DNA from: Lactimicrobium massiliense
Lineage (GTDB): Bacteria > Bacillota_I > Bacilli_A > Erysipelotrichales > Erysipelotrichaceae
Length of the DNA: 64,000 nt
Direction of reading: 5' to 3'
Assembly (NCBI RefSeq): GCF_900343155.1
Contig: NZ_OUNG01000005.1
Span: 1-64,000, forward strand
Positions 53,337 through 56,798 of the stretch are shown one piece after another (positions within the stretch are counted from its first letter, which is position 1; each line of letters opens with the position of its first letter). Both the position numbers and the translations under genes were made by a program. Under the pieces are notes generated by a model. The model ran no database searches. It was given only the letters and a program-made list of their open reading frames with translations, and had not been told where the DNA came from.

Positions 53337-53411
53337 GGCGAGTTGGTGAAGCGGCTTAACACACCGCCCTCTCAAGGCGGCATTTCACGGGTCCGAATCC
53401 CGTACTCGTCA
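53337..53411 (+). tRNA. tRNA-Glu (anticodon CTC)
   Basis: A 75-base cloverleaf. The acceptor stem GGCGAGT pairs with ACTCGTC (one G-U). The anticodon stem CCGCC/GGCGG carries loop CTCTCAA (anticodon CTC), and the T arm is ACGGG-TCCGAAT-CCCGT. Body sequence is close to other bacterial tRNA-Glu genes. CCA is not encoded. It lies near gltX, its charging enzyme. Confidence 0.93.
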
Positions 53412-53417
53412 CTGAAT

Positions 53418-53442: not shown

Positions 53443-53682
53443 TATTCTCTGTTATTATGCATAAGCAAAAAAACCGGCTTTTCAGAGGGTGCTGAAAAAG
53501 TGCGGTTATCAAATAGCCGATTATGCATCACTCATTAACCTATGAGCTGCTTGGACACAGACATTCAATCCAAAATGATAAGCGCGTAATCCTAATCAAT
53601 GATTATGCGCTTTTTCTTCACATTTTGGTTGAAATACATGCATGCATGGTATACAATGTGTCTATACTCCGGAGGTGTCTTT

Positions 53683-55179
53683 ATGCTCAGAATGATTGAT
53701 ATGCCCCAGTTGGATCTTGGCTCTTATAACGAGCTCTATGATATTCTGATCCCTGGAGATAACTTCTGGCGTCAGATGAACGAAACGATTGACTTCTCTT
53801 TTGTTGCTAAAGAAGTTCAGAACAACTACAGCGACTGTATGGGCAGAACTGCAGCTGATCCGGTACTGCTGTTCAAATATCTGCTTCTTAAGACCGCACG
53901 CAAACTCAGTGATCGTGATCTGATTGAAAGAGTCCGATATGACATGGAAATGAAATACTTTCTGGGCTACAGGCCTGAAGAAACTGAATTCATTGATCCG
54001 AGCCTGCTTACCAAATTTCGCAGAACCAGACTCAAGGATACCGATCTGCTGAATGTGCTGATTGGCAAGACTGTTGAAATCGGGAAGAAGAAAGGAATTA
54101 TTCACGATCACGAAAAGATCATCGTTGATTCCACTCATACCAATGCACTCTACCAGCATATTTCTCCGCGTGAGGAACTGATCAGGCGGGCAAAGGAACT
54201 GAGAAAGTCTGTATATGCAGCGGATGAAACCATGAAGGACAGAATGCCGAAGAAGCGGGAAAGCAGCGGTCTTCTGGAGGATGAAATCGAATACTGCAAG
54301 GAACTGCTGGATCTGATCGCTTCAGATGAGCGGCTTCAGAAGATACCGGATATCCAGGAACGTCTCAATTACCTGAAAGAAGGAGTTGAAGACACGAGAG
54401 AACAGCTGGAATTTTCCAGAGATCCGGATGCGAAAGTGGGACATAAGACTGCAGACACTTCCTTCTTCGGGTATAAGACGCATATTGCCATGACCACGGA
54501 CAGAGTCATTGTGAGTGCAGCAGTGACAACCGGAGAGAAACATGACGGAAAGCAGGCGGCAGATCTGATTGAGAAAGCAGAAAACGCAGGAGTAACCGTA
54601 GACGCTCTGATTGGTGATGGCGCATATTCCGAGAAAGACAATATTGAATACACCTCAGAAAAAGGAATTAAGCTGGCATCAAAGCTGAGTGAGAATGTTC
54701 TGCATGGAAGCCGGGAGAAAGAGTTTGAGTTCAACAAGGATGCCGGGATGTATGTATGCCCGGCAGGACATATGGCAGTCAGAAAAAGCAAAGGCGGTCA
54801 GGAGAAAGCAGCGAATGGTTCTGATACAAAAGTAGTTACCTATTTCTTCGATGTAGAGAAATGCAGAAACTGTCCTTTGCGAAACGGCTGTTACAAGGAA
54901 GGTGCGAAGTCTAAAATCTACTCGGTAAAGATCAAATCAGATACGCATATTGCTCAGATGGATTACATGAAATCAGATGAATTCAGAGAACTATATGCTG
55001 AGCGATACAAGATCGAGGCTAAGAATGCGGAACTGAAGCAGACCCTCGATTATGGAAATGCCCATGCGTGCGGAATGAGCGGAATGACGATACAGGCAGC
55101 AGTATCGATTTTTCTTGTGAACCTGAAGAGGATAAAAACACTGGAAACCAGCGTTAAGGGAGCACCAGATAAGGAATAA
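53683..55179 (+). CDS. IS1182-family transposase
   Basis: A 498-residue DDE transposase. Start at ATG 53683, with GGAGGTGTC upstream; the frame extends to 53599 but the added residues are not coding-like. The N-terminal domain includes ADPVLLFKYLLLKTARKLSD and FLGYRPEETEFIDPSLLTKF. The DDE core includes IVDSTHTNA, KTADTSFFGYKTHIAMT and IGDGAYSEKDN. It also has a cysteine-rich insertion (KCRNCPLRNGCYKEG) and the final E in YKIEAKNAELKQTLDYGNA. It is intact, so the element could still move. Confidence 0.93.
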   Translation: MLRMIDMPQLDLGSYNELYDILIPGDNFWRQMNETIDFSFVAKEVQNNYSDCMGRTAADPVLLFKYLLLKTARKLSDRDLIERVRYDMEMKYFLGYRPEETEFIDPSLLTKFRRTRLKDTDLLNVLIGKTVEIGKKKGIIHDHEKIIVDSTHTNALYQHISPREELIRRAKELRKSVYAADETMKDRMPKKRESSGLLEDEIEYCKELLDLIASDERLQKIPDIQERLNYLKEGVEDTREQLEFSRDPDAKVGHKTADTSFFGYKTHIAMTTDRVIVSAAVTTGEKHDGKQAADLIEKAENAGVTVDALIGDGAYSEKDNIEYTSEKGIKLASKLSENVLHGSREKEFEFNKDAGMYVCPAGHMAVRKSKGGQEKAANGSDTKVVTYFFDVEKCRNCPLRNGCYKEGAKSKIYSVKIKSDTHIAQMDYMKSDEFRELYAERYKIEAKNAELKQTLDYGNAHACGMSGMTIQAAVSIFLVNLKRIKTLETSVKGAPDKE

Positions 55180-55215
55180 TCCTTTATGACCGCACGATAT
55201 TCCATTGAAAAGAAG

Positions 55216-55251
55216 AAAATCCCGGCCAGTATCAAAACCGGTCAGGATTTT
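55216..55251. terminator. Hairpin at the right end of the IS1182 element
   Basis: AAAATCC pairs with GGATTTT, and inside it CCGG pairs with CCGG. T-rich sequence follows on both strands (GGATTTTCTTCTTTT on the minus strand). It probably ends the transposase mRNA and may also replace the disrupted gltX terminator on the opposite strand. Confidence 0.6.
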
Positions 55252-55319
55252 CATCCAAAATTCCGTTTACAACCCCACTTTGTCAGCAGCCTCGCTTTTC
55301 AGCCAGTTTTACTAACTCA

Positions 55320-56798
55320 TTAAGCCTGTTCAGCCGTTTCCTTTTCCAACTGTGCAATGGAAAGATCCAGACGGCGCAGCGTTTCTTTCTTACCAAGAAT
55401 CTCGGCAATTTCAATCGCACCGCCAGGAGTAAACTGTTTGCCTGAAATGGCAAGACGCAGCGGGAACAGCACCTGTCCATTCTTCAGACCCATCTGCTTT
55501 GGCAATGCAAGCAGTACTTCGTGCAGATGATCCTGTGTCCAGTCTTTCTCATCAATCTTCTCCAGAGCCTCTTTTGCGGCTTTCAGAGAAGTCAGAGATA
55601 CCGGCAGTGTTGTCTTCATCTTCTTGTTCACATACAGATCTGTACTGAAGGAAGGGAAGACATCAAAGAAATCGACCATCTCCGGAATCTCAGTCAGTGT
55701 GTTGGCACGCTGCTGCAGAATTGCCGCAATTTTCTTACCGTCAAAGTTACCCTTGACACCCTGTTCAATATACGGCTTGACCAGCTTGTAATAGCTGTCC
55801 AGATCCATATTGCGCAGCCACATGCCATTGATCCACTTCAGCTTTTCCGGATCAAAGATGGCGCCAACCTTACCAATACGCTTCACATTGAATGCTTTGG
55901 CAAGCTCATCCAGTGTGAAGATTTCACGGTCATCCTCTGGCGACCAGCCAAGCAGGGCAATATAGTTCAGAATTGCCTCAGGCAGATATCCCTTGGCAAC
56001 CAGATCCTGGAAGGACGCATCACCATTACGCTTGGAAAGCTTATGATGCTCATCCTTCATAACCGGCGGGCAGTGAATATAGCGGGGAATATCCCAGCCG
56101 AAGGCATTGTAAATCAGATTGTACTTCGGCGTCGAAGACAGATACTCCATACCTCTGACAACATCTGTAATACCCATCAGATGGTCATCGACAACGTTGG
56201 CAAAATTATAGGTAGGGAAGCCATCACTCTTGATCAGAATCTGCTCATCCAGTGTCTCATTGTCAACTGTGATGCGGCCGAACACTTCATCATCAAAGGA
56301 TGTTGTGCCTGTTTCCGGAATGGTCTGACGAATGGTGAAAGGCTCACCAGCCGCAATCCGCTTCTCTGCTTCTTCAACGGTCAGCTTCTTGCACGGATCA
56401 TCATACTTGAAGGACTCACCGCGTGCTTCCTGCAGCTCTCTCTGGGCATTGATCATGTCCTCATCACAGAAACAATAATGTGCACCGCCCAGGCGGATCA
56501 GTTCCTTTGCATACTTCATGTACAGACCGCTCTTGACACGCTCAGACTGTACATACGGACCAACCGGACCGCCGACATCCGGTCCCTCATCATGATCCAG
56601 ATGGCACTGCTTCAATGTCTCATAAATAATATCCGTTGCGCCTTCCACAAGTCTGCCCTGATCCGTATCCTCAATACGCAGAATGAAGACACCATTCGGA
56701 TCCTTGCGTGCAACAAGATATGCATAAAGCGCAGTCCGCAGGTTGCCAATGTGCATGTACCCGGTAGGGGACGGCGCAAATCTCGTTCTAACTGTCAT
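55320..56798 (-). CDS. gltX: Glutamyl-tRNA synthetase
   Basis: 492 residues, a normal bacterial GluRS. Class I motifs are present: SPTGYMHIGN (HIGH) at about 9-18 and KLSKRNGD (KMSKS) near 253. The zinc-binding-like YCFCDE segment occurs, and the C-terminal anticodon-binding domain is complete. It attaches glutamate to tRNA-Glu and, in Firmicutes lacking GlnRS, also to tRNA-Gln for amidation. It lies between the tRNA-Glu and tRNA-Gln genes. AAAGGAGTATAAAA precedes the ATG. Its native terminator has been split by the IS1182 element. Confidence 0.96.
   Translation of the reverse strand: MTVRTRFAPSPTGYMHIGNLRTALYAYLVARKDPNGVFILRIEDTDQGRLVEGATDIIYETLKQCHLDHDEGPDVGGPVGPYVQSERVKSGLYMKYAKELIRLGGAHYCFCDEDMINAQRELQEARGESFKYDDPCKKLTVEEAEKRIAAGEPFTIRQTIPETGTTSFDDEVFGRITVDNETLDEQILIKSDGFPTYNFANVVDDHLMGITDVVRGMEYLSSTPKYNLIYNAFGWDIPRYIHCPPVMKDEHHKLSKRNGDASFQDLVAKGYLPEAILNYIALLGWSPEDDREIFTLDELAKAFNVKRIGKVGAIFDPEKLKWINGMWLRNMDLDSYYKLVKPYIEQGVKGNFDGKKIAAILQQRANTLTEIPEMVDFFDVFPSFSTDLYVNKKMKTTLPVSLTSLKAAKEALEKIDEKDWTQDHLHEVLLALPKQMGLKNGQVLFPLRLAISGKQFTPGGAIEIAEILGKKETLRRLDLSIAQLEKETAEQA

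Follow-up and report, generated by a model that had tools for sequence, protein, structure and literature searches.

Why does an insertion sequence in Lactimicrobium massiliense sit inside the transcription terminator of gltX, with the gene itself left whole, and would its transposase select such hairpins as targets? We approached this question from the window (the whole 64,000-nt stretch of DNA that was analysed), from the second copy of the element in the same genome, and from related elements and element-free sites in other bacteria.

The insertion at the gltX terminator

The window element is an IS1182-family insertion sequence of 1,809 bp (Table 1). Its transposase reaches 336.4 bits against the NCBIfam IS1182-family model NF033551 (cut-off 270) and, at the domain level, exceeds the cut-offs of Pfam DDE_Tnp_1, DDE_Tnp_1_6 and DUF772; four relatives, 46-53% identical to it, are annotated as IS1182 family transposases. 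The ends, GAGGGTGCTGAAAAAG and GAGGCTGCTGACAAAG, are identical at 14 of 16 positions, and GCTTTTCA stands on both sides. The original prediction, an IS1182 element with intact inverted repeats and a target duplication, is thus borne out by family model, DDE domains, repeats and duplication alike; its drawn extent, up to 55316, was too long, the last position of the element being 55293 and that of the half-stem 55310. The promoter-like hexamers upstream of the transposase gene are of a kind found 5 times in the region and 3.4 times in shuffles. The uninterrupted reading frame and the 99% identity of the two genome copies suggest that the element moved recently.

Rejoining the flanks yields, on the gltX strand, AAAACTGGC-TGAAAA-GCCGGTTTT followed by TTT, beginning 9 nt past the gltX stop (written through its 3' side, AAAACTGGC-TGAAAA-GCCGGTTTTTTT). 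The hairpin with its TGAAAA loop and T-run is therefore restored on removal of the element, as had been proposed, and the gltX reading frame is indeed untouched. The 34-nt terminator piece is predicted to fold at -13.1 kcal/mol into a 10-pair stem with the loop GAAA, one pair beyond the earlier drawing, and 1 in 1000 mononucleotide shuffles folds as low; for an 83-nt piece, the minimum-energy fold is predicted to be a different one. The hairpin score at the centre of the duplication is matched by 0.44% of 914 positions in the site's own flanks (p 0.0044). Besides the 6 nt of the loop as drawn, the duplication includes 2 nt of one arm, and its centre is displaced by about 1 nt: the element does split the gltX terminator hairpin, but "exactly in the loop" overstates a duplication that takes in part of the arm.

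That the split hairpin was the gltX terminator is supported by relatives of the same genus: of the 29 examined (58 had a match), 16 have a terminator-like hairpin no more than 80 nt after gltX. By eye, the gltX terminators of these other species differ in sequence from that of the window. The gltX search returned other species of the genus and no empty site from the species itself.

Table 1. Features of the insertion and its surroundings (window positions)
Feature	Position	Strand	Remark
tRNA-Glu (CTC) gene	53337..53412	+	beyond the element, convergent with gltX
A-tract and outer half-stem of split gltX terminator (far, T-run side)	53467..53476	.	
Left target duplication GCTTTTCA	53477..53484	.	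gltX terminator loop plus 2 nt of one arm
IS1182-family insertion sequence	53485..55293	+	ends, target duplication, transposase above NCBIfam NF033551 cut-off
Left terminal inverted repeat GAGGGTGCTGAAAAAG	53485..53500	+	
Left subterminal hairpin, inward-reading, then T-run, upstream of transposase gene	53580..53612	+	-15.7 kcal/mol, 60-nt piece
Promoter-like hexamers TTGAAA-17-TACAAT, upstream of transposase gene	53629..53657	+	consensus match only
Transposase gene (tnp), 498 aa, DDE type	53683..55179	+	reading frame uninterrupted
Right subterminal hairpin, inward-reading, T-rich tail	55215..55252	-	-22.8 kcal/mol, 60-nt piece
Right terminal inverted repeat GAGGCTGCTGACAAAG	55278..55293	-	
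Right target duplication GCTTTTCA	55294..55301	.	
Near half-stem GCCAGTTTT of split gltX terminator	55302..55310	.	
gltX (glutamyl-tRNA synthetase), uninterrupted host gene	55320..56798	-	its terminator was the target

Target sites of the second copy and of relatives

Mapping further copies in the genome, the check proposed at the outset, returned a single other copy (L002), 99% identical to the window element and likewise bounded by inverted repeats with 14/16 matches and an 8-bp duplication, here GCATCTGC. The restored site, GGCGG-CATCTG-CCGCC-TTTTTT, directly follows a serine carboxypeptidase-like gene, and the element again lies within a hairpin loop with a T-run (p 0.023 against its own flanks). 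At this locus a convergent MFS transporter gene (3253-4623 of L002, minus strand) overlaps the terminator with its 3' end; its last residues are swapped, and a new C-terminal tail is read from the left end of the element. The idea that this targeting spares host genes therefore holds in the main but not throughout: gltX is intact, and the second copy alters the tail of the transporter.

Relatives came from searches at the family, order and class levels (272, 315 and 395 genomes, in overlapping sets), from plasmid records and from a scan of genome contigs. Inclusion of a site required a duplication and a transposase identity of 38% or more, and sites met more than once entered the count a single time (L169 and L170, which are the L145 and L146 sites, were not added). 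This gave 44 distinct sites, 2 from this genome and the others from relatives about 40-77% identical. Excluded were copies with no recognised duplication (L010 and L058 of G141, L012 of G076, L130 of G363), contig-end, incomplete or one-ended copies (L005, L014, L018, L084, L085, L091, L111, L114, L134, L135, L138 and others), the G001 fragments, copies interrupted by other DNA (L132+L136, L059+L063, L060+L061, L100+L099), and copies with exchanged flanks (L066 and L072 of G013). As hairpin criterion we used a score of at least 14 centred no more than 1 nt from the duplication, with positions 25-60 nt off as the null.

By this measure a hairpin is centred on the duplication at 28/44 sites versus 4.4% in the null, and one scoring at least 20 at 21/44 versus 0.8%; at 3-4 nt off centre, a score of 14 is reached at 0-7% of sites. 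An earlier scoring, which took each site's own flanks as the null, gave p<0.05 in 25/39 and p<0.01 in 22/39. Six of the excluded joins were scored separately, and three reach the threshold: L100+L099 (27), L066+L072 (18.5) and L072+L066 (25, a score for the plain join, where no duplication was recognised). The remaining three fall below it (6, 6 and 9); by eye, the hairpin of the L132+L136 join is displaced by about 2 nt. A rearrangement between the two IS copies is suggested in G013 (L066 and L072): when their flanks are cross-paired, one junction regains an 8-bp duplication and a hairpin, and the other has hairpin-like arms.

Sixteen of the 44 sites lie below the threshold. At three of them (L013, L087, L104) a strong hairpin is present with its centre displaced by 1.5-2 nt, and 13 still fail when the centre tolerance is widened to 2.5 nt: four of G141, four of G363, three of G347, and one each of G354 and G058 (L007, from a relative 77% identical). 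Outside G141, the sites weak at this wider tolerance are L007, L090, L093, L095, L101, L102, L116 (which scores 3.5 with its ends corrected by one base), L126 and L131. The G141 element, 57-58% identical, reaches the threshold at none of its four duplication sites and neither of its two interrupted copies; its duplications are 9 bp long, and three of the four sites lie within mechanically called ORFs. In a tree of the elements, G141 groups with G270, L003, L007 and the window element (100/100), its order with respect to G270 not being settled. The G141 loci (L036, L010, L053, L055, L057, L058) are a natural case in which the target preference was lost, is absent or has changed. Copies in non-palindromic sites had been named as the test of hairpin selection, and the outcome favours such selection with exceptions: both genome copies lie in hairpins, as do most of the clade sites, whereas the G141 relative shows no hairpin preference. 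Taken as a whole, the sites support a preference for target hairpins that appears strong in the clade, though not universal.

Natural empty sites show the target without the element. In Enterococcus raffinosus (E. raffinosus), five plasmids match the L146 flank, two with the element and three without; the three empty ones have GGATTGAGAAAAACTTCTCAATCC in place of the element and its 9-bp duplication GAAAAACTC, with one base different. In Priestia megaterium, 29 records match the L144 flank, and three without the element were examined (L201, L202, L203). At the site occupied in L144 by the element and its duplication GTAAAAAC, the plasmid L202 has GGAGAAGGGTAAAAACCCTTCTCC and the plasmid L203 a version of it that differs by one change; L201 is without the hairpin. 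The empty sites of E. raffinosus and of L202/L203 show that the hairpin occurs in the absence of the element and that no bases were deleted. For the Metabacillus copy no empty site was found among two records, one the copy itself and the other covering 63% of the query and ending short of the site. Together with the second genome copy and the 28 clade sites, the empty sites in two species uphold the original proposal that terminator-like hairpins are selected.

A distant clade and the hairpins inside the elements

Whole hairpins are duplicated in a distant IS1182 clade, about 21-25% identical, whose ends are CAGACTGTTGACAAA or near it (also styled the CAGACTGTTGAC clade). All 13 duplications tested are palindromic, 17-35 bp long and each at p<0.01 versus shuffles (L147, L148, L151-L154, L160, L163, L164, L019, L025, L030, L031), and two members reach 409.7 and 427.8 bits against NF033551. 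These 13 belong to 28 distant loci, among which five have 7-bp duplications and ten have none (L020, L021, L024, L028, L032, L149, L150, L161, L162, L165); these ten include loci at the end of a contig, one with a masked flank and some whose ends are unreliable. The 7-bp duplications are those of a very distant IS1182-like element (L155-L159, G002) with ends GATGCGCCCGACAAAA, unlike those of the other loci, and, by eye, no evident hairpin. In the tree, the rows with whole-hairpin duplications group together (100/100). The loop label takes six changes, with the G141, weak-site and G002 rows scattered among loop rows, and the 40%-identity loop rows L103 and L109 fall across the midpoint root; with such long branches the deep order is unsure.

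The elements also carry hairpins of their own. In the window element, both subterminal hairpins read inward; the left one is absent from a stricter consensus scan, and the right one, whose core that scan lists, faces read-through from gltX. Among 22 representative elements, inward terminator-like hairpins occur on the left in 18, on the right in 14, at both ends in 12 and at neither in 2, compared with 3-5% in shuffled ends and, in 163 inner segments, 0.6% on the plus and 14% on the minus strand. The whole-hairpin clade has them on the left in 6/8 and on the right in 8/8, partly built from the inverted repeats. The right-end hairpin of the window element may thus stand in for the lost gltX terminator, a role that its anatomy fits.

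Accounts of the targeting and known systems

From these sequence comparisons, we consider it very probable that the transposase prefers the loop of terminator hairpins and cuts there with a stagger of 8-9 bp. The target would be a bidirectional intrinsic-terminator hairpin, a loop on a short stem between an A-tract and a T-tract, with the staggered cut spanning the loop. The transposase might sense an extruded or single-stranded hairpin, or else a palindrome together with the shape of its A/T tracts, rather than base sequence. The inward hairpins of the element would shield the transposase gene from outside transcription and replace the split host terminator, so that the site would be near neutral for the host.

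An alternative that we hold to be unlikely is that the transposase responds to symmetrically placed A-tracts and T-tracts, through a bend or groove shape at a set spacing, with the hairpin only incidental to terminators, which have both tracts. The tracts are in fact the more general feature: an A-run on the left and a T-run on the right occur together at 36/44 sites versus 3.2% of 3,824 null positions, one or the other occurs at 42/44 versus 31%, and they are present at several sites whose hairpin is weak, among them L093, L126 and L131 of G363. Against this, the inner arms of a site (positions 1-5) pair with one another at 0.755, compared with 0.518 when arms are exchanged among sites (z 10.5; 0/500 shuffles equal it), and z lies at 7.6 to 10.6 over arms 1-4 to 1-6. 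Since a site's own arms pair so far above exchanged ones, the hairpin appears to count beyond the tracts, and we judged a pure A/T-tract account insufficient. Insertion could also be nearly random, selection then retaining copies in harmless intergenic places. By mechanical ORF calling, which is crude and misjudges the window site itself, 27/44 sites are intergenic and 17/44 inside ORFs (some at an ORF's last bases); both neighbours could be resolved for 23 of the intergenic sites, and 16 of these are flanked by convergent ORFs. Purging of harmful copies cannot, however, centre 28 of 44 duplications on a hairpin within 1 nt when so few sites score at 3-4 nt off, nor can it yield the whole-hairpin duplications of the distant clade; this account is highly improbable, and the centring led us to reject it.

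What is recognised might instead be transcription as it ends at a terminator, through a paused polymerase, an RNA hairpin or an R-loop, and not the DNA hairpin. The targets do resemble intrinsic terminators with T-runs, and RNA-seq showed target hairpins A to E of the related TnSha1 to be terminators (PMC4923244). Many of the sites described here, however, are symmetric palindromes flanked by a tract on each side and have a loop-centred duplication, which DNA structure explains more simply, and we give the transcriptional reading a low probability, similar to that of the tract reading. The preferred reading remains a transposase that favours the hairpin loop itself.

Group IIC introns likewise insert beside intrinsic terminator hairpins, as the window element does, but differ from it in their RNA-based mobility and in having no DDE transposase. 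Within the IS1182 family, hairpin or terminator targeting is already published: according to PMC4923244 and PMC5678879, IS1272/TnSha1 target inverted repeats or hairpins, several of them confirmed terminators, that have no primary-sequence consensus. The loop duplication described here is a variant of this behaviour. The window clade and IS1272/TnSha1 share the family and the hairpin targets; whereas IS1272/TnSha1, according to the same papers, wholly or partly delete the stem-loop and make no duplication, the window clade duplicates 8-9 bp at the loop, with no deletion at the empty sites seen. An IS1272-type transposition that replaces the stem-loop is thus ruled out by the 8-bp duplications of both genome copies and by the complete empty sites. 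Both duplicating pathways are drawn as possibilities in PMC5678879, and PMC4923244 and PMC5678879 credit palindromic targets of some IS1182 members to the Siguier 2015 review. In the open-licence PMC literature we found no loop-duplicating mode over a clade and no hairpin-duplicating clade.

Similar to the catalogued IS1182 family, the elements studied here combine an NF033551 transposase, terminal inverted repeats and a variable duplication length, for which PMC7335449 quotes an ISfinder range of 2-60 bp. In the sites compared here, two hairpin-related modes are seen, duplication of 8-9 bp at the loop and of a whole hairpin of 17-35 bp. The distant clade and the IS1272 deletion together suggest that the IS1182 family reads target hairpins, with clades differing in where they cut. 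It is about an even bet, in our estimation, that hairpin geometry sets the cut positions (at the loop, near the foot, or removing the hairpin as in IS1272), that the 2-60 bp range largely reflects the size of the hairpin part involved, and that, as many elements bring inward-reading terminators of their own, each insertion swaps or copies a host terminator, making terminators a safe harbour.

If this is true, the family would provide a DDE transposase guided by the structure of DNA instead of its sequence, its clades cutting the hairpin at different places, and the odd spread of IS1182 duplication lengths would be accounted for. The close outlier G141, which lacks the preference, would make the target determinant mappable by comparison of transposases. 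It would also hint at a way in which certain IS elements last in a genome, altering where transcription stops but doing host genes little harm.
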